Shown: positions 6,549 through 16,860 of the stretch, in pieces | Layout: each line of letters starts with the position of its first letter | How positions within the stretch are numbered: the stretch's first letter is position 1 | From: a virus | DNA: 26,550 nt | IMG/VR virus record: IMGVR_UViG_3300021963_000560 | Location: 1 to 26,550 of that record | Reading direction: 5' to 3' (one strand) | Made by a program: the position numbers and the translations under genes | Notes under the pieces: generated by a model | What the model was told of the DNA's origin: nothing | Seen by the model: only the letters and a program-made list of their open reading frames with translations | Database searches by the model: none

Positions 6549-7823
6549 TTATTCTAACAGACTTGTAATTTGTTTACGTTGTTGTTCTGCCAGTAATGAT
6601 AGCGCATCCATTGGAATATTCTGACCAAGATTGTTTGCTTCGGTGTGCAGCGCAACAGGGATTTGCTCAATTCCCAATTCTTTAGCCATATACGCTCTAT
6701 GCCTACCATCCTCTTTGCCATCTTTATAAATGTGCAATGGGTCTAGTTTTCCACCAGATTGAACATGGCTTTTAAGTGAGGCAATGTTTTCTAGTGACAC
6801 ATCATCTAACTCTAATGGTCTTACTCTGGACAAATACTCGTCAGGAGTCATGTAAGTAAGTTGACCACCAAATTCTTCGTATCTAGTGCCAGCAGGTGCT
6901 AAAGGATATTCAACAGCGTTTCTTTGTGCTGTATCTAGTGCTTCTTGCTGTGGATAACTTGCTTTTACTTTTGACGCTTTAATAGCATCCTCAAATGGCT
7001 TCTGATACCTAGCTGGCATTGCAAAGTCTGACAATGCTTTGTCAATACTTCCAGCTTCCTCAAGAGTATCAATTGAATGTTTTAGTAATTGTCTAGTTTC
7101 ATCAGAACGGAACTTACCTTCCAATGCCTTTTTCATTGCAGGAATGTCATACTTGTTGCTTAAATCTTCAATTACTGAAACAGGGACATTCTTCTCACCA
7201 AGCAATCTTAATGCTTCAAGTCTATGCTGACCTTCAAGAACATTTCCTAAATCGTCAACAATAATCCTAGAAACAAAACCATCAGGACTAGAAATTTTTT
7301 CTGCTAACTCTTTAACCCTTTTAACTTCTTTAGGGTCTGTCATTCGTACACCACCAGTTAATTGGTCAATTGGTAATGTTTTGTTTCCACCTAATTTTGC
7401 ATACTCAAATGTCGCATCCATTACTTCATAAACGTCATCTGTTGGCGGTTTAACTCTTAGTTTTGTTCCTACATTCTTAACGCTTGCGCCTACTGGTAAA
7501 CCCTTAGTAGCTTGCATTAACGCTCTGTTAACAGGTGCAGCAAATGGTGCAAGGGTCATTGCAGCTTCAGCAGTCTCAGGCTTTAACAATGGTACGTTAG
7601 CCCTGTTGACGTTGGTTAATGCGTCTAGCAATCCTCTGGGGCTTTCAGCGTATGCTGCTCTCTCTACTGTCTTAGGGATTCCTGTGCTTTCCAACAAATT
7701 ACCCAGACCTTGCAGTTGCTGAGTGCGCCTTTTATCTTGCATGAACGCAAGCAAGCCTTGGATAGCATCGTTAGATAACCCTGTTAATGGGTTAGCGTAA
7801 GGAGTAGCCCTAAGTTCAGCCAT
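6549..7823 (-). CDS. Protein with two ParB/sulfiredoxin-like boxes
   Basis: This encodes 424 residues; its ATG overlaps the preceding stop as TAATG. Two separated stretches look like the ParB-N/sulfiredoxin fold signature. The first is DDLGNVLEGQHRLEALRLLG (about 190-209) followed by VPVSVIED. The second is KDGKEDGRHRAYMAKELGI (about 367-385) followed by IPVAL. Each has a G-x-H-R core, as in the box that binds nucleotide in ParB-type CTPases. The first 110 residues are Leu/Ala-rich helices like those of virion-associated polyproteins. It sits just upstream of terS. It could be a DNA-binding or nucleotide-dependent factor in packaging, or an injected effector; the biochemical role is unknown. 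Confidence 0.7.
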   Translation of the reverse strand: MAELRATPYANPLTGLSNDAIQGLLAFMQDKRRTQQLQGLGNLLESTGIPKTVERAAYAESPRGLLDALTNVNRANVPLLKPETAEAAMTLAPFAAPVNRALMQATKGLPVGASVKNVGTKLRVKPPTDDVYEVMDATFEYAKLGGNKTLPIDQLTGGVRMTDPKEVKRVKELAEKISSPDGFVSRIIVDDLGNVLEGQHRLEALRLLGEKNVPVSVIEDLSNKYDIPAMKKALEGKFRSDETRQLLKHSIDTLEEAGSIDKALSDFAMPARYQKPFEDAIKASKVKASYPQQEALDTAQRNAVEYPLAPAGTRYEEFGGQLTYMTPDEYLSRVRPLELDDVSLENIASLKSHVQSGGKLDPLHIYKDGKEDGRHRAYMAKELGIEQIPVALHTEANNLGQNIPMDALSLLAEQQRKQITSLLE

Positions 7824-10519: not shown

Positions 10520-10536
10520 TTTGTATCCTTAAAAGT

Positions 10537-10552
10537 GGGGAACTAAGTCCCC
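10537..10552 (-). promoter_or_regulatory. Intergenic RNA hairpin, copy 1
   Basis: Read leftward, GGGGACTTAGTTCCCC folds with five base pairs and a CTTAGT loop, preceded by AAATCAACA and followed by TTTTAAGGA before the next ATG. There is no T run, so it is not an obvious terminator. A near-identical element with the same flanks lies at 14953-14968 on the other strand. Confidence 0.65.
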
Positions 10553-10559
10553 TGTTGAT

Positions 10560-10730
10560 TTATTTAAAATTAAAACCTTGAGCAATTTCTAAAGCCTCTT
10601 GTGCAGTTCTTCCAAAGTACAAGTGACCACTTTTACCCTCAACAGCCCAATCATTGATGCCAACTTCAATTTGCTGCTCAAGCGTCATGTCGTTGAAGCT
10701 AGGGTTATGAATTTCGTATGCTTTAGTCAT
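10560..10730 (-). CDS. Small protein, first gene of regulatory module copy 1
   Basis: This encodes 56 residues starting MTKAYEIHNPSFNDM; ATG 10730 follows TTAAGGAAATCAAA. The C-terminal half has W-A-V-E...YFGRTAQEALEIAQ. The product of the gene at 14724 on the other strand also starts MTK and has W-V-V-E...FFGHSRKEAIQNAI, and the promoter, leader and following hairpin match too. The two genes are therefore probably diverged copies. The fold is small (about one beta strand plus a helix). Function unknown; it is controlled by the promoter at 10777. Confidence 0.8.
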   Translation of the reverse strand: MTKAYEIHNPSFNDMTLEQQIEVGINDWAVEGKSGHLYFGRTAQEALEIAQGFNFK

Positions 10731-10776
10731 TTTGATTTCCTTAAAAGTACCCTTGCGAATTGCTTGGGCTGACGCA

Positions 10777-10806
10777 AGTATAGCAAACAAATAAACAAAA
10801 TGTTTA
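10777..10806 (-). promoter_or_regulatory. Operator palindrome plus extended -10 promoter, copy 1
   Basis: A perfect palindrome TAAACA-AAA-TGTTTA (10792-10806) lies 9 bases upstream of TGC-TATACT, an extended -10 (-10 at 10782-10777, read leftward). The leader to ATG 10730 is 46 bases. The same arrangement is found at 14649-14676 on the plus strand. A repressor bound to the palindrome would cover the -35 region; the Cro-like protein encoded at 14410 is the likely ligand. Confidence 0.7.
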
Positions 10807-10822
10807 CTAAGAACAATTATTT

Positions 10823-11155
10823 TTATTCTGTTGTTTTTACGCCAAGACGCTCACTTGCTTGCTCACTTCTCCAAATGTCAGCTTTCATCTGAGCAGCAGT
10901 CAGCATCCACTTTAAGGTTTCTTCCTTCTCAATGGCAATCATCAAACCTTTGAGCAAATCAGCATACTCAATGTGAGCATAGGCTTCACGCTCTTGGGCA
11001 ACCGCAGAATCTATCCCTCTAGCCATAGCGTCTTTCATCAGCAGAGCCTTTTTGGTTTTGCGGAATTCTTCAAGATATATCCTTTGTGCTTTAGCCTCGG
11101 CAAATTTGCATGAATTTTCAATGATGTACTCAATGGCTTTGTAAGGGGCTTTCAT
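10823..11155 (-). CDS. Conserved phage protein next to RusA, function unknown
   Basis: This encodes 110 residues starting MKAPYKAIEYIIENS; ATG 11155 overlaps the rusA stop (ATGA), with AAGGAG upstream. The product is almost entirely helical: EAKAQRIYLEEFRKTKKALLM, then AVAQEREAYAHIEYADLLKG and EEETLKWMLTAAQMKADIW up to RSEQAS. I recall proteins with this pattern in phage recombination/replication regions, but no role is assigned. Its 3' end is followed directly by the internal promoter for copy 1 of the module. Confidence 0.8.
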   Translation of the reverse strand: MKAPYKAIEYIIENSCKFAEAKAQRIYLEEFRKTKKALLMKDAMARGIDSAVAQEREAYAHIEYADLLKGLMIAIEKEETLKWMLTAAQMKADIWRSEQASERLGVKTTE

Positions 11156-11580
11156 TCCAGACACTCCTTAACGCAAATATCTACACCAGCTTGACTTGAA
11201 TAAACCTTACTTACATGGAAGTTGACGATTTGAGAATCATCCTTGTAAACCACGGAATTCATACCATCTTCTACGCTTTTCAAGATATTGGACGCATCTG
11301 GCTTCTTAATTGGCTTCTCTGAGCCATTTTGGATAGCCTCCAAGCGTTTTTTAGTGCATGACTTAGGGATAGGTACTCTGATGTACAGATAAAGCGATAC
11401 AGGAGTTTCTAGTGGCTCGGAACTTCCCATCGCTTGTTTGGCAGATTCCTTGATAAGCGTTTCGTAGCTTCTGGTTTTCTCAGGGGTGTAGGCTTGGACA
11501 AAGTTGCCACGCTTGGCATACCTTGCTCTTTGTTTGCCAACAGGATTACCTTCAACTTTGAATGTCACCATGAATGTCAT
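11152..11580 (-). CDS. rusA: RusA-type Holliday junction resolvase
   Basis: This encodes 142 residues; ATG 11580 has AAGGA upstream. RusA dimers cut four-way DNA junctions and help resolve recombination or replication intermediates. Family hallmarks present are GNPVGKQRAR near the N-terminus, KKPDASNILKSVEDGMN (Asp95, Lys101) and VVYKDDSQIV (Asp114, Asp115). The usual P-D-x-D-N motif reads P-D-A-S-N, so the second acidic position is Ser97; other acidic residues may compensate, or activity may be altered. Length is slightly above the E. coli RusA size. It lies between a small conserved gene and a helical protein, with ATGA overlaps on both sides. Confidence 0.9.
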   Translation of the reverse strand: MTFMVTFKVEGNPVGKQRARYAKRGNFVQAYTPEKTRSYETLIKESAKQAMGSSEPLETPVSLYLYIRVPIPKSCTKKRLEAIQNGSEKPIKKPDASNILKSVEDGMNSVVYKDDSQIVNFHVSKVYSSQAGVDICVKECLE

Positions 11581-11798: not shown

Positions 11799-12659
11799 TC
11801 ATGCAAGTTTCATCCCATAGTTGTTAACACCTTGCGGAATAACAATTCCTTCTTTTTTGAGCAACTGGTTTTTCTGGAAAACGCTGTAATCAACGTGATG
11901 ATGGTGTCTGCCATAACGAAAGGCTAATCTTGAAACATCTGGATGCAAGTCAACCAGCATCTGTGATTTCGGAAGTGTTCCTTCTTTTTCGTAAAACTCT
12001 GCTGTGTTACCGCCTTTGACAGTCTGTGTAGCAGCTTTGTTTTGTAAGAAGCATTGAAACAAAACAGTACACCATCCATCTTTGAGCATCCTCAAGGAAA
12101 GGTCTGTGTCTTCGTTGTATCTACCTCTCCAGCGATAAGGAACATCGTTCCTATTCAAGATGCAAGAGTAAATCCTTGTGTTCAATCGGAAAGCAGGTTT
12201 CTTGCGTCTGCTGCCACCAGCAAAGAAACGATACTCAAACCCTGCCTGAGAGACATTCTCGTAACGCTCAACAAAGTCCTCTGCAATGCGAAAGATAGTC
12301 CCAGAAGAAACCTTGTGACGCTCGTTGCGGTTTAGGCGACAGAAGCCATCAATGTTGTCGTCTAGCACCCAATGCCAAGATGCACCGATAGAGATGGAGT
12401 GCTGCCAGCAGAAGTTCCTTGCTGCGCCAGGCCCAACTCCCAGAGAGTTACCCAGAGAGTCGCAAGTATCGTAATCACGCAAATATTGTTTATCAAGGAT
12501 TAGGATTTTCTCTGGCGCAATAACTGACGCATAGTTGTCGTACTCTTGTTCCTCAATAACGATAAAGTACGGAACTTTCATTTCGTCAAATGCTTTGCTT
12601 GTCAGTCTGGATTCCCATCTGCCTTTTGAGACAATGTAAACAGGGTGTTTAGGATTCAT
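11799..12659 (-). CDS. TET-associated (GREB1-like) glycosyltransferase
   Basis: This encodes 286 residues. The N-terminus PVYIVSKGRWESR, then GPGAARNFCWQHS, HWVLDDNIDGF (Asp100, Asp101), GRYNEDTDLSLR (Glu183, Asp184, Asp186), a KGGN segment, DLHPD and GRHHHHVDY match my knowledge of the TAGT family, a GT-A-fold group related to the GREB1 glycosyltransferase domain. In phages these enzymes are proposed to add sugar to hydroxymethylated bases made by TET/JBP dioxygenases, blocking host nucleases. The DDN motif would bind the metal and sugar nucleotide. No TET/JBP gene is in this window, so the acceptor is unknown. It overlaps the upstream small gene by 11 bases. Confidence 0.85.
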   Translation of the reverse strand: MNPKHPVYIVSKGRWESRLTSKAFDEMKVPYFIVIEEQEYDNYASVIAPEKILILDKQYLRDYDTCDSLGNSLGVGPGAARNFCWQHSISIGASWHWVLDDNIDGFCRLNRNERHKVSSGTIFRIAEDFVERYENVSQAGFEYRFFAGGSRRKKPAFRLNTRIYSCILNRNDVPYRWRGRYNEDTDLSLRMLKDGWCTVLFQCFLQNKAATQTVKGGNTAEFYEKEGTLPKSQMLVDLHPDVSRLAFRYGRHHHHVDYSVFQKNQLLKKEGIVIPQGVNNYGMKLA

Positions 12660-12882
12660 CTATCCACACCTTTTTTTCTGTCTGGGTTACTGGAAACAAA
12701 ACACTCTTGGTTGTGAATGTGATGTTTCTGCCAATCAACTCAGAAAACTTAATCATGTCTTCTGTTGTCAGGAAGTGGACAGTAATGCTGTGTATCTCAG
12801 TCAAGTCTTCTTGGACAAACTCAGGCATACCTTGCCACTCCTTTTCCCAATTAAATTCTTCGTCACCAAATAAGTCTTTCAT
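12649..12882 (-). CDS. Small conserved protein paired with the glycosyltransferase
   Basis: This encodes 77 residues: an acidic/aromatic N-terminus (DLFGDEEFNWEKEWQGMPEF) then an alpha/beta core, ITVHFLTTEDMIKFSELIGR and NITFTTKSVLFP. I recall similar small domains (W-x-x-M-P-E-F...K-S-V/I-x-F/Y-P) in phages, in places next to TAGT or ParB-like proteins; this memory is unchecked. The gene overlaps the glycosyltransferase by 11 bases and the replication gene by 4. It may be a partner or specificity subunit of the modification enzyme; no catalytic residues are evident. Confidence 0.72.
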   Translation of the reverse strand: MKDLFGDEEFNWEKEWQGMPEFVQEDLTEIHSITVHFLTTEDMIKFSELIGRNITFTTKSVLFPVTQTEKKVWIDES

Positions 12883-13628
12883 GCCTTCCTCCGCAACTCA
12901 GCCATCTTTGCTAAAACTTCTAGCGGAATAGGCGCAGCTTTAAGAGCATCAGCTTTAATTTTCTCAAGAGCAGGGTCAGGCTCATTTCTGCTCGGAACTG
13001 TGAGCCTCACAATGTCAGCAGGGTTTTGTTTAGGTGCGTTAGTGCTTCTCACCCAATTACGCCAAGTTGCAAACCAATCCAGCTTGACACCCTTCTGACC
13101 TGCTTGGGCTATCCAGTAATCCTTGAACTGGTCAAAGGTTTTAACAGGGCTAAGTTCTGGTCTTGTCTGTTGGCAGAACTGTTCCCATTCCAATGGAAAA
13201 CTAAAATCAGAAGCGAGGCGTTTGCCGAGTGTCTTCTTCTCTTGGTTATTGGTTATTGGTTTATGGTTATTGGTTGCTATTGGGGTAGCATTAGGGGTGC
13301 TAATAGCCTCCCCATTGGGGGGTGTTGACCACCTCTTAGCTGCCCCACGCTTTCCAGCTTCTGAGAACTCTTTGTATTGCTTGATTTCCTTGTCTGCACG
13401 AGGAGAAACAAAGCCATCTGCTGTGGAAATAAAGAACTCATTAAGCACAGTCATAACGTCTTCCTCATGCTCACGCATACCAATCTGACGAGCAATATCC
13501 CTGTGTTTTATGGGTTGCTCATGCAGAAAGTAGAAGTCTAGCAAACGTCTGTAAGCTAAATCTTCCATTAAAGAAAGATGATGAGTGTGACTTTTGTAGT
13601 CACCAATGTGAAACTGGTAGTAGTGCAT
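12879..13628 (-). CDS. DUF1376 (YdaU-like) replication protein
   Basis: This encodes 249 residues from ATG 13628 (MHYYQFHIGDYKSHTHHLSL). The N-terminal ~100 residues are a DUF1376 domain (winged-helix-like: LMEDLAYRRLLDFYFLHEQP, then VLNEFF and a D-K-E-I-x-x-Y segment), typical of phage replication initiators in the position of lambda O. A low-complexity linker (TPNATPIATNNHKPITNNQE) follows, encoded by 7-bp tandem repeats. The C-terminal part has FPLEWEQFCQQTRPEL and WFATWRNWVR, as in helicase-loader-type proteins. It has a 105-base untranslated region upstream and overlaps the next gene by 4 bases. Confidence 0.82.
   Translation of the reverse strand: MHYYQFHIGDYKSHTHHLSLMEDLAYRRLLDFYFLHEQPIKHRDIARQIGMREHEEDVMTVLNEFFISTADGFVSPRADKEIKQYKEFSEAGKRGAAKRWSTPPNGEAISTPNATPIATNNHKPITNNQEKKTLGKRLASDFSFPLEWEQFCQQTRPELSPVKTFDQFKDYWIAQAGQKGVKLDWFATWRNWVRSTNAPKQNPADIVRLTVPSRNEPDPALEKIKADALKAAPIPLEVLAKMAELRRKA
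13242..13285. repeat. Seven-base tandem repeats inside the replication gene
   Basis: TTATTGG occurs at 13246, 13253 and 13267, with TTTATGG at 13260, giving four contiguous 7-base units; a diverged TATTGG follows near 13278. They encode the Asn/Thr/Pro linker of the DUF1376 protein. They could be binding sites for the initiator (lambda's origin repeats lie in gene O), or only a slippage-prone linker. Confidence 0.7.
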
Positions 13629-13733
13629 AACACGCCCCAAATACCCCCATAAAAGAAACAATCGGCAGGAGGGGGGTGTTCTCTTTTCGGTATGGGTAAT
13701 TAGTCCAACCTAGCCGTGTTTCAAAACATTGTA

Positions 13734-14102
13734 TCAAATAAACTGATTGTTTGTAATATCTTGTGAAAACGATTTACCAAGCAGTCTTTTAGCTTGTGCG
13801 TTCATTACCGCATATTCTGCCTTAGAAAAGATACCTTTGGCATTGCGAATGTCGAAAGGATTTAGCTTATCGTAAGGCTCATCATTGGCAGCCTTTTGAG
13901 CCTCAATCATGTGTGGTGCAAGGGTAAACTGAGAAACCCAAGAACGCCCCATCTTAATTTTCCCTATTGTTAATTTCTTCTTGTAACTCATCTTGGTGCA
14001 ACAAGCTGCAATGGATAGTCTTGGTATGCCAGTTAAATCCTCTAGTTGGTAGGATGTGAGTGGGCCATTCTGTAATGCTCTGATAACTGCTTCTTGGGTC
14101 AT
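13734..14102 (-). CDS. Winged-helix DNA-binding protein
   Basis: This encodes 122 residues from ATG 14102, which overlaps the previous stop (ATGA). The N-terminus MTQEAVIRALQNGPLTSYQL, followed by EDLTGIPRLSIAACCTKMSY, has the spacing of a winged helix-turn-helix, with a basic wing (KKKLTIGKIKMGRSW). The C-terminal half, NPFDIRNAKGIFSKAEYAVM then NAQAKRLLG, is a second helical region. It is the third gene after the control region, where phages often encode regulators or replication accessories. Its target is unknown. Confidence 0.72.
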   Translation of the reverse strand: MTQEAVIRALQNGPLTSYQLEDLTGIPRLSIAACCTKMSYKKKLTIGKIKMGRSWVSQFTLAPHMIEAQKAANDEPYDKLNPFDIRNAKGIFSKAEYAVMNAQAKRLLGKSFSQDITNNQFI

Positions 14103-14413
14103 TCTGTAACTTCTTCTTTCTTTAATGGAATAGCTGGGCCTCTGCGGATATTGCAACTCTTGCAAGTAGGCTCAACTTCTAATGGTTTGTTGTAGTCTCT
14201 GTGTTCATAACATTGAGCAATTTTCCCACAATCTACACAAATTAAAGTTGAAACGTGAGGCAAGATACCTTTTTTTACTGCTTGATTTACTTTAGCAGCA
14301 GCTTGTACTTGTCCATTCTTTTTAGGTCTTAAATCACAACATGACCAACAGAATTTAGCACTCGGCTCTCTGCCAGTAATTTCCTGATTGCAATCAGCGC
14401 ACAATTTACTCAT
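14099..14413 (-). CDS. Two-zinc-site phage protein (HNH-like C-terminus)
   Basis: This encodes 104 residues. Zinc ligands can be read as C5-x2-C8...C22-x2-C25 and C59-x2-C62...C84-x2-C87, with His71 between the last pairs. The second half, CVDCGKIAQCYEHRDYNKP then LEVEPTCKSCNIRRG, looks like the treble-clef scaffold of HNH proteins but lacks an obvious full nuclease triad. It is joined by ATGA overlaps to the Cro-like gene upstream and the winged-helix gene downstream, so it is expressed with the repressor. A DNA-binding or antirepressor-type role is possible but unproven. Confidence 0.75.
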   Translation of the reverse strand: MSKLCADCNQEITGREPSAKFCWSCCDLRPKKNGQVQAAAKVNQAVKKGILPHVSTLICVDCGKIAQCYEHRDYNKPLEVEPTCKSCNIRRGPAIPLKKEEVTE

Positions 14414-14595
14414 TTCTTAATCCTTTTGTTTAAGAAAAGTTTTGGGTAGGCTAACTTGATTGACGCAGGGATGCCTCTGGTCATCCAGTTATGCACTCGC
14501 TGCTTAGAGATTTGTAGCTTCTTAGAAATGTAAGAAGTACCACCTAGAGCCTGTATAAGTTCTTGGTCAAATTGGATTTGTTCTTGTTTGGTCAT
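14410..14595 (-). CDS. Cro/YdaS-like helix-turn-helix repressor
   Basis: This encodes 61 residues from ATG 14595 (MTKQEQIQFDQELIQALGGT). The helix-turn-helix spans about residues 19-37 (TSYISKKLQISKQRVHNWMT), followed by RGIPASIKLAYPKLF, the typical Cro/YdaS pattern. It heads the leftward early operon. There is no Shine-Dalgarno sequence, and the TATGAT box ends 7 bases before the A of ATG, so the message is probably leaderless, as for lambda cI from PRM. The likely targets are the TAAACA-n3-TGTTTA sites at 14627, 14649 and 10792. It could act as lysogenic repressor or early switch; no partner repressor or integrase is in the window. Confidence 0.85.
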   Translation of the reverse strand: MTKQEQIQFDQELIQALGGTSYISKKLQISKQRVHNWMTRGIPASIKLAYPKLFLNKRIKK

Positions 14596-14601
14596 GGTTG
14601 C

Positions 14602-14630
14602 ATCATAACAACAGAATTCATAAAAGTAAA
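14602..14630 (-). promoter_or_regulatory. Promoter of the Cro-like gene (leaderless)
   Basis: Read leftward: TTTACT (14630-14625), a 17-base spacer, TATGAT (14607-14602), six bases, then ATG at 14595. The predicted transcription start is at or next to the A of the start codon. The -35 overlaps the weak operator at 14627-14641, which suggests autoregulation. Confidence 0.6.
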
Positions 14631-14641
14631 CTATTTGTGAA
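14627..14641. promoter_or_regulatory. Degenerate second operator site
   Basis: TAAACT-ATT-TGTGAA matches the TAAACA-n3-TGTTTA consensus at 5 of 6 bases in the left arm and 4 of 6 in the right. Its centre (14634) is 22 bp from that of the stronger site (14656), about two helical turns, as with neighbouring lambda operators. It overlaps the leftward -35. Confidence 0.45.
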
Positions 14642-14648
14642 AATATTT

Positions 14649-14676
14649 TAAACAAAGTGTTTTTCTTTGCTATACT
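14649..14676 (+). promoter_or_regulatory. Operator palindrome plus extended -10 promoter, copy 2 (rightward)
   Basis: TAAACA-AAG-TGTTTT (14649-14663) is followed after 7 bases by TGC-TATACT (-10 at 14671-14676, extended -10). TAAACA also serves as a weak -35 with a 16-base spacer. The 47-base leader to ATG 14724 resembles that of copy 1 (CTATAC...TCAGCCCA...TTAAGGAAATCAA). Confidence 0.7.
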
Positions 14677-14723
14677 GCACTCAGCCCATAACAAAACGTA
14701 AGTGGGTAATTAAGGAAATCAAG

Positions 14724-14945
14724 ATGACTAAGTTATTTAACGCAGACTGCTACTTTAAAGAAGAACAATACAACCCAAGAATTCGGGCTACTGTTCCTCC
14801 AGCTTGGGTAGTTGAGTTTGATTGTGCTTTGCCAAATACAAATGTCCCACCTGTGTTCTTTGGACATTCTCGTAAAGAAGCAATCCAAAACGCAATTGAT
14901 TGCTTAAAGTCTATGGGTTTAACAGGACGTTTAATTTTAAACTAA
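14724..14945 (+). CDS. Small protein, first gene of regulatory module copy 2
   Basis: This encodes 73 residues starting MTKLFNADCYFKEEQ; TTAAGGAAATCAAG precedes ATG 14724. The centre and C-terminus have PPAWVVEF...PVFFGHSRKEAIQNAIDCL. The product of the leftward gene at 10730 shows the same W-x-V-E...F-G-x-x-x-x-E-A-x-x-x-A pattern; the copy here has a longer loop. It heads the rightward operon under the operator-controlled promoter and is probably among the first genes expressed. Function unknown. Confidence 0.8.
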   Translation: MTKLFNADCYFKEEQYNPRIRATVPPAWVVEFDCALPNTNVPPVFFGHSRKEAIQNAIDCLKSMGLTGRLILN

Positions 14946-14952
14946 ATCAACA

Positions 14953-14968
14953 GGGGGCTTAGTCCCCC
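14953..14968 (+). promoter_or_regulatory. Intergenic RNA hairpin, copy 2
   Basis: GGGGGCTTAGTCCCCC forms a five-base G/C stem with a six-base loop, flanked by AAATCAACA and AATTAAGGAG. There is no T run. It is the counterpart of 10537-10552 and could be a processing site or control translation of the next gene. Confidence 0.65.
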
Positions 14969-14984
14969 AATTAAGGAGAACCAA

Positions 14985-15603: not shown

Positions 15604-16212
15604 ATGGTACACAAGAAGTTAATGCAAGCACGAGTGGAATTACAAGCAATGCCACTCAAAAAGTCTGGTCACAACAAGTTTGCTGGCTATAACTACTTTG
15701 AGTTAGGAGACTTTCTCCCTCAAGTAAACTCAATCTTTAACCGCCTTGGTTTGTGCAGCGTAGTGTCGTTTGACGCTGAATATGCAAGCCTGACTATTAC
15801 TGATGTAGATGATGGCACAATGATTGTCATTACAAGCCCAATGGTTGAATCAAGCATGAAAGGCGCATCAGCCATCCAGTCCCTTGGTGGAATTCAGACT
15901 TATCAACGGAGATATTTATATTTATGCGCTACTGACCTCGTAGAAAACGATAGTTTTGATGCAGCAGCCCCTATCAAGGAAGAAAAGATAATCATCACAC
16001 CTACTCAGGGTGCAATGGATACCATTCCAGAAGACGAACAGAATTATCTCAGAGAGTTAGCAATGGAGTTAATTGCTATCTGTGAGAAAGAAGAACCTAA
16101 GACAGCTTGGGTCAAGTTGGAAGCAGAGAACTTAGATAGCGAACAGAAAGTTGCTCTATGGACTTTACTTCCTAGTAAAGTAAGAAGTGCGTTAAAGAAC
16201 GCTAAAGGATAA
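15604..16212 (+). CDS. erf: ERF-family single-strand annealing protein
   Basis: This encodes 202 residues. ERF proteins anneal complementary single strands, and in P22 allow genome circularisation and recombination. The hallmark segments are SGHNKFAGYNYFELGDFLPQ near residue 22, the central beta region and SAIQSLGGIQTYQRRYLYLC, followed by a DLVENDSFDA segment. The C-terminal third is acidic/helical and more divergent, as is usual. It is followed after 2 bases by an SSB-like gene, a typical recombination pairing. RusA and the HNH nuclease in the other operon would complete such a pathway. Confidence 0.9.
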   Translation: MVHKKLMQARVELQAMPLKKSGHNKFAGYNYFELGDFLPQVNSIFNRLGLCSVVSFDAEYASLTITDVDDGTMIVITSPMVESSMKGASAIQSLGGIQTYQRRYLYLCATDLVENDSFDAAAPIKEEKIIITPTQGAMDTIPEDEQNYLRELAMELIAICEKEEPKTAWVKLEAENLDSEQKVALWTLLPSKVRSALKNAKG

Positions 16213-16214
16213 AT

Positions 16215-16460
16215 ATGGAATACGATAATACTAACAGGGGTTCTTTGTTCAAGAACGATAGAAAAGATGATGCTAAGTTTCCAGACTACAAAGGGTCTGT
16301 AAACGTAGAGGGTGTGGAGTATTGGCTATCTGCTTGGATTAAACTAAGCAAAGACGGACAGAAGTTCATGTCCTTGTCTATCAAAAATAAGAACGCTGAT
16401 GCTTCTTTAAACAAGCCTAAAAAATCTAAACAAGAAGATGATTTAGACCTACCATTTTAA
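16215..16460 (+). CDS. SSB-like phage protein with acidic tail
   Basis: This encodes 81 residues. The pattern NRGSLFKNDRKDDAKFPDYK, followed by G-S-V-N-V-x-G-V-E-Y-W-L-S-A-W-I-K and KFMSLSIKNK, is seen in small phage proteins related to DUF736. The end, KQEDDLDLPF, resembles the acidic tip of bacterial SSB that recruits partner enzymes. With ERF directly upstream, single-strand binding is a reasonable inference. It is much shorter than classical SSB. Confidence 0.78.
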   Translation: MEYDNTNRGSLFKNDRKDDAKFPDYKGSVNVEGVEYWLSAWIKLSKDGQKFMSLSIKNKNADASLNKPKKSKQEDDLDLPF

Positions 16461-16539: not shown

Positions 16540-16860
16540 ATGGATTACAAGAAGTTATTTGACAGAGTGTTTCCTGACTTCCCAAGAGTGAGAAGCACAG
16601 ACCCACTAACATCATTTGAGGCAGCAGAGGCAATTAAGCCAGTTGTCTCTCAGCACCATCAAGTTATCCTAGAGTGCTTACAAAAGCATGGTTCTCTTGG
16701 TAAGGATGGCATAGCAGCATTGACTAACCTAGATGGTAATCAAGTCGCTAGACGCTTAAACGAAATGAAAGTCTTAGGACTTATTGAACTTACAGGTAAA
16801 ACAGTTAAATCTAACTCAGGACGCAATGAAAGAGAGTGGTCATGTCATACGCAGATGTAG
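16540..16860 (+). CDS. Winged-helix phage protein
   Basis: This encodes 106 residues from ATG 16540 with a strong AAAGGAG site. VRSTDPLTSFEAAEAIKPVV and a following Gln-His-His-Gln-Val-Ile-Leu introduce a helical region; then LGKDGIAALTNLDGNQVARR and LNEMKVLGLIELTGKTV form a winged helix-turn-helix with a wing (SNSGRNEREW). Proteins of this type are common in phage early operons and may bind DNA as regulators or replication aids. The 5' leader carries the three-tier hairpin, which could regulate it. Confidence 0.75.
   Translation: MDYKKLFDRVFPDFPRVRSTDPLTSFEAAEAIKPVVSQHHQVILECLQKHGSLGKDGIAALTNLDGNQVARRLNEMKVLGLIELTGKTVKSNSGRNEREWSCHTQM

Follow-up and report, generated by a model that had tools for sequence, protein, structure and literature searches.

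Can a single small repressor govern divergently transcribed early genes in a phage that carries no recognisable lysogeny partner, and does such an arrangement amount to a genetic switch? The question is raised by a divergent gene junction in a 26,550-nucleotide stretch of viral DNA (IMG/VR record IMGVR_UViG_3300021963_000560, positions 1 to 26,550), here called the window. Our analysis makes it very likely that this junction is part of an early control hub, in which a Cro-type repressor acts on three promoters in a lambda-type layout without a detectable cI or integrase. The operators, the positions of their promoters, their conservation, their tie to one Cro type and the lack of cI and integrase are features of the compared sequences; binding, dimerisation, repression and timing are the parts that the model would add to them.

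Palindromic sites at three promoters and their conservation

Three palindromic sites, O1, O2 and O4, were located in the window, each overlapping the -35 region of one of three plausible sigma-70 type promoters (Table 1). An earlier note on this DNA had proposed a strong site centred at 14656 and a weaker one centred at 14634, each on a -35 and 22 bp apart between divergent promoters, together with a further operator at 10792 on an internal promoter. All of these were recovered, and both the 22-bp spacing and the internal site recur among related phages. The motif scan that the note had called for, run on the window, had a mixed outcome: with up to three mismatches allowed, 28 matches were found against 25 expected, so that weak sites such as O2 did not rise above chance and a comparison with relatives was needed, which did show the sites to be real.

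Table 1. Coordinates of the control elements and genes of the window, with information content in bits per position.
Feature	Position	Strand	Description
Operator O1, TAAACAAAGTGTTTT	14649..14663		Centre 14656; at -35 region of rightward promoter; 1 mismatch to palindrome; arms 1.65 bits, centre 0.47
Operator O2, TAAACTATTTGTGAA	14627..14641		Centre 14634; at -35 of cro promoter; weak match in the window, 3 mismatches; arms 1.76 bits, centre 0.86
Possible third site O3	14608..14622		Within spacer of cro promoter; window copy degenerate; relatives have better palindromes
Operator O4, TAAACAAAATGTTTA	10792..10806		At second leftward promoter; exact palindrome, recurring in relatives
Predicted cro promoter	14602..14630	-	-35 TTTACT 14630-14625, 17 nt, -10 TATGAT 14607-14602
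Predicted rightward (PL-like) promoter	14647..14676	+	Extended -10 TATACT 14671-14676
Predicted second leftward promoter	10777..10806	-	-35 TAAACA 10806-10801, 18 nt, -10 TATACT 10782-10777
cro-like gene	14410..14595	-	61-aa protein with helix-turn-helix (recognition segment SKQRVHNW); heads leftward operon
CxxC zinc/HNH-like protein	14099..14413	-	Second gene of cro operon; matches phrog_2340 endonuclease (E 3.8e-5), with an alignment as further evidence
DUF1376 primosomal/replication protein	12879..13661	-	cro operon; start codon uncertain
RusA Holliday-junction resolvase	11152..11580	-	cro operon
Small gene, first behind O4	10560..10733	-	Within promoter-leader-gene-hairpin cassette
Leader hairpin CCCAAGCAATTCGCAAGGG	10750..10768	-	Leader of second leftward promoter; same leader in relatives; paralogous to rightward leader
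Hairpin near predicted 5' end of rightward transcript	14685..14706	+	Hairpins in most relatives
Small gene, first in rightward operon	14724..14945	+	C-terminal part like that of 10560-10733; inverted repeats I1, I10
ERF single-strand annealing protein	15604..16212	+	Rightward operon
Single-strand DNA-binding protein (SSB)	16215..16460	+	Rightward operon

Related loci were collected in two scans of viral contigs using the Cro protein as query, and yielded 83 loci with alignable control regions. Both junction sites were resolved in 80 loci (79 viral loci and the window), of which 76 have a spacing of 22 bp and the other 4 one of 23 bp. A single site was resolved in four other loci: L023 begins within the control region, O2 of L081 is weak, and the control regions of L045 and L102 are apparently shorter by about one 22-bp unit, which leaves the divergent promoters with one operator between them. 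The last two suggest that one operator may serve both promoters. Information content, computed over 55 distinct sequences, was concentrated in the arms of O1 and O2 and low in their central triplets (Table 1), and conserved arms with variable centres are what a palindromic site for a protein should show. Conservation of O3 was weak (arms 1.27 bits against 1.03 in the centre), and O3 is only weakly supported as a site.

A position weight matrix trained on relatives outside the clade of the window placed O4 at the top of the window, at 18.0 bits against a maximum of 17.85 in 200 shuffled controls. It was followed by 12637 (coding), 7517, 14649, 14919 and 14627, placing O1 fourth and O2 sixth. 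Among loci outside the training set, 35 of 39 had an O1 of at least 12 bits and 38 of 39 an O2 of that strength, counts that are not independent because the loci are homologous. O4-type sites were present in 26 of the 51 related loci with enough flanking sequence, 2.5-3.9 kb downstream of cro, and were missing from about half of the relatives. Across one set of scanned loci, every site of at least 16 bits lay at the junction or at O4. Spacing, arms and recurrence are thus kept across related loci, and on this comparative evidence the O1, O2 and O4 palindromes are confirmed as real sites.

Several further matches were considered. The exact operator-like match at 12637-12651, overlooked in the earlier note, covers the start codon of 11799-12659, has no adjacent promoter and is probably a chance occurrence. 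In a scan of eight longer relatives, two further sites reached 16 bits. One, G007:17884 (16.8 bits), lies just 5' of the homologue of window gene 163-1266, appears by eye to encode a conserved LNNVL and was rejected as a regulatory site; the other, at G015:23151-23165, is operator-like (16.0 bits) and lies away from the control junction of its genome. Separately, an inverted repeat, GTTGY-TAWGAT-RCAAC (14598-14613), surrounds the -10 of the cro promoter and is kept in most relatives, out of register with the operator half-sites.

A neighbourhood search, queried with the CxxC zinc/HNH-like gene that comes second in the cro operon, recovered loci in which other regulators occupy the place of cro: P22_Cro-family proteins in L136, L161 and L174 (by Pfam) and in L184 and L185 (by near-identical sequence), a different helix-turn-helix protein in L145 and similar loci, and a prophage-like pair in L172. 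In L161 and L174, a Pfam search also confirmed ERF on the divergent side. No operator site of at least 11 bits was found in L136, L161, L174, L184, L185, L145, L147-L151 or L155, and none lay at the junction of L172. Both sites were present in the loci of the same set that encode a QRVHNW-type Cro (L152, L166, L167, L169, L171, L182, L183 and L186). Because the operator is absent with other regulators and present with the QRVHNW-type Cro, it follows the Cro type and not the host or the locus. L136, L161, L174, L184, L185 and L145, whose Cro or helix-turn-helix proteins are not orthologous to this Cro, point to an exchange of repressor specificity among phages without a detectable cI. Different palindromes are present at several of the loci with other regulators. 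In Acinetobacter and Moraxella phages with a more distant Cro, other palindromes were seen by eye and no control-region site was scored.

The Cro-like protein, its gene and the surrounding gene content

The leftward gene at the junction had been described as Cro-like in the earlier note, and this description is supported. The protein matches PHROG 8008 (DNA-binding protein) with an E value of 1.9e-18; Pfam scores fell below cut-off for both YdaS (PF15943; 26.4 bits, E 6e-6, cut-off 30) and P22_Cro (PF14549; 15.2 bits, cut-off 30.2). The AF2 model of the 61 residues (pLDDT 88) is all-helical, with helices H3-17, H19-27, H31-40 and H44-49, and has a small helix-turn-helix fold. Fold matches to the solved Cro proteins of N15 and Xfaso1 were weak (Foldseek E at least 0.75), and a DALI-like structure comparison (VIA) with solved Cro proteins gave a middling Z of about 4.5. 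As in a Cro repressor, the gene is the first of the early replication operon and carries palindromic operators on its own promoter. A rule linking recognition helix to half-site was sought and did not come out cleanly; TGTGTA half-sites occur mainly with NNW variants.

In 75 of the 83 loci, as in the window, the end of a canonical -10 lies exactly 6 nt ahead of the cro ATG; the remaining 8 deviate from the hexamer pattern used, by eye in one letter. A Shine-Dalgarno-like 4-mer within 20 nt of the cro ATG was found in none of the 83. Because the -10 lies so close to the ATG and such a 4-mer is lacking, the cro mRNA is predicted to be leaderless, with transcription starting at the AUG. A similarly close -10 is present in some loci with another Cro type.

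The claim that cI and integrase are missing was likewise upheld, by profile searches of 28 related records, mostly incomplete viral records. The integrase search, which covered the tyrosine family (PF00589), detected none in these records, and no S24 or CI-repressor match exceeded the cut-off in the 28 taken together, the families run varying by record. As a positive control, the S24 profile recovered the cI proteins of phages QDWS and fEg-Aba01. HTH_3 and PF07022 matches in relatives were below cut-off and were discarded, those to PF07022 lying in frames of 61-64 aa that are apparently cro itself. Measured against a lambdoid switch, the locus thus has shared operators at both early promoters and has neither a detectable cI divergent from cro nor a detectable integrase.

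Other small helix-turn-helix proteins are encoded at 13734-14165 and 16540-16860, and a ParB-like domain lies at 6549-7823, among structural genes. For the structural genes, the nearest named isolate is Methylophilales phage Venkman. One of the 28 records, G007, is 34.2 kb long and appears to be a near-complete, circularly permuted genome, since homologues of neighbouring window genes sit at its two ends; about 7 kb of it, comprising head and tail genes, has no counterpart in the window. No relative was found in two scans of bacterial genome contigs. As a separate observation, the leftward gene 11799-12659 is glycosyltransferase-like, matching a PHROG for beta-glucosyl-HMC-alpha-glucosyltransferase (E 1.2e-45), and could point to modified DNA bases or to another glycosyl transfer.

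A predicted negative-feedback hub and competing readings

In the proposed mechanism, the 61-residue Cro would bind the 15-bp palindrome T[A/C]AACA-n3-TGTT[T/G]A, probably as a dimer. At O1 it would block the rightward, PL-like recombination operon (ERF, SSB); at O2 it would block its own leftward, PR-like operon (cro, replication protein, RusA); and at O4 it would block the second leftward promoter, 3.8 kb downstream. On infection all three promoters would fire, cro would be translated from its leaderless mRNA, and the accumulating Cro would turn down its own synthesis together with the early genes. The earlier suggestion that one repressor controls both directions fits the finding that operators of one Cro type lie on both divergent promoters, with repression itself belonging to the model. 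Its likeness to a switch of the lambda OR kind was not supported: cro would be self-repressed, all interactions listed above are negative, and no opposing repressor was detected. With every interaction negative and the antagonist absent, two stable states are not predicted, and the locus is predicted to be a negative-feedback hub for homeostasis and early-gene shut-down, not a bistable switch.

The immunity region of lambda and P22 has the layout OL-cI-OR-cro, and the better parallel is OL plus OR fused without cI, not OR alone. The locus shares with lambda and P22 a Cro-type repressor and one operator used by the promoters of both early operons. With these phages and with Shewanella phage vB_Sb_QDWS (OK094664) it shares the PR/PL operon order, namely cro, replication, RusA and terminase with a divergent recombination operon. 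QDWS is the nearest sequenced example with the Cro type of the window (Cro 45% identical); it encodes an S24 cI-type repressor, carries the operator of the window in an OR-like region between cI and cro (TAAACGTCTTGTTGA, TACACGCGATGTTTG and TAAACATGGTGTTTA) and has two OL-like copies ahead of its recombination operon, of which the second was identified by eye. In contrast to the OL-cI-OR-cro type, the window has no detectable cI or integrase, its early promoters abut, an extra operator lies at a third promoter, and cro is predicted to be leaderless. The cI that lies between OL and OR in QDWS has no detectable counterpart here, so that the OL- and OR-like promoters lie side by side. Because the cI-bearing QDWS layout uses the same operators, we favour loss of cI over assembly without it.

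Two further comparisons are informative. The immB regions of the telomere phages PY54, phiKO2 and N15 likewise have a small Cro and few operators (PMC4488713, PMC4997575), and PY54 cro mRNA is reported to be leaderless (PMC4488713), as predicted here; those phages differ in being temperate, with a prophage repressor. PY54 Cro has been suggested not to repress its own synthesis (PMC4488713, PMC4997575). Venkman EXVC282S (MT375522), with a portal 57% and a terminase 61% identical, has a P22_Cro-family gene at a divergent junction, but it has another Cro, another palindrome (TCTAGAGAGGCTCTAGA) and a Shine-Dalgarno sequence before its cro. A literature search of incomplete coverage found no described case of the exact arrangement.

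A one-protein switch, in which pre-existing Cro silences the early promoters of resident or incoming genomes and thereby sustains a non-integrated carrier state or superinfection immunity, is unlikely, though it survives best among the alternatives. Every early promoter identified has an operator for the one protein, and the Cro type differs at the same place between related phages, as selection for immunity specificity would produce. A self-repressed Cro with no positive feedback in the model does not, however, favour a repressed state that sustains itself; neither a partition system nor an integrase nor any other gene for maintenance was recognised, the ParB-like domain lying among structural genes, and the bacterial genome scans contained no relative. 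Also improbable is a wider proposal in which one Cro is the sole control of both early genes and superinfection and Cro types are swapped at a fixed junction, so that phages differ in immunity with no lysogeny involved; repression might then make some infections pause.

A diverged, unrecognised cI-type partner, which would restore a normal temperate switch, is very improbable: the other small helix-turn-helix proteins of the window are candidates for it, but the S24 profile that finds the cI of QDWS and fEg-Aba01 gave nothing over cut-off in the 28 records, the loci that were read leave no gene-sized room between the divergent promoters, and no integrase was detected. That the palindromes are host regulator sites with an incidental neighbouring Cro can be nearly dismissed; they do sit at the -35 elements of host-type promoters, but they are absent where another Cro type holds the same neighbourhood, turn up again in Shewanella phage QDWS, whose Cro is related, and score nowhere in the control regions of Acinetobacter and Moraxella phages with a more distant one.

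If the Cro-based hub is correct, its interest lies in what it isolates. The role of Cro in lytic growth without an opposing cI is debated in lambda, and a family of freshwater phages would show that role where no lysogeny decision exists. The constraint kept on cro and several operators in a widespread lineage that lacks cI suggests that early-gene turn-down is itself selected. The three promoters form a small system for testing this, and the different Cro types that occupy this neighbourhood provide ready-made material for specificity swaps.

The O4 promoter, its cassette and the leader hairpins

In relatives, O4 frequently takes the form of a perfect palindrome, either TAAACAnnnTGTTTA or TCAACAnnnTGTTGA; another common form is the asymmetric TAAACAnnnTGTTGA. 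Where O4 lies with respect to the -10 varies by lineage: it may coincide with the -35, fall within the spacer or lie farther upstream. Because its position differs in this way, occlusion by a bound repressor would fit better than activation.

The O4 cassette of the window (10533-10806, minus strand) is paralogous to 14649-14972 on the plus strand, each consisting of a promoter and leader followed by a small gene and a GC-rich hairpin, as seen in repeats I1, I2 and I10. Compared with mononucleotide shuffles, the hairpins of 45 distinct leaders had a mean z of -2.0, and their sequence changes between relatives. On both repressible transcripts other than that of cro they lie close to the predicted 5' end and take a similar form, with an outer stem that is often CCC...GGG, a variable inner stem and a 5-nt loop. 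Do they act as mRNA stabilisers, or as nut/put-like antitermination sites? A further hairpin of the GGGGGCTTAGTCCCCC type, followed by a Shine-Dalgarno sequence, occurs between small genes in both cassettes (14952-14967 and 10537-10552; repeat I1). The small genes that follow the leaders are not the same from one relative to another, so these hairpins may be module-boundary repeats.
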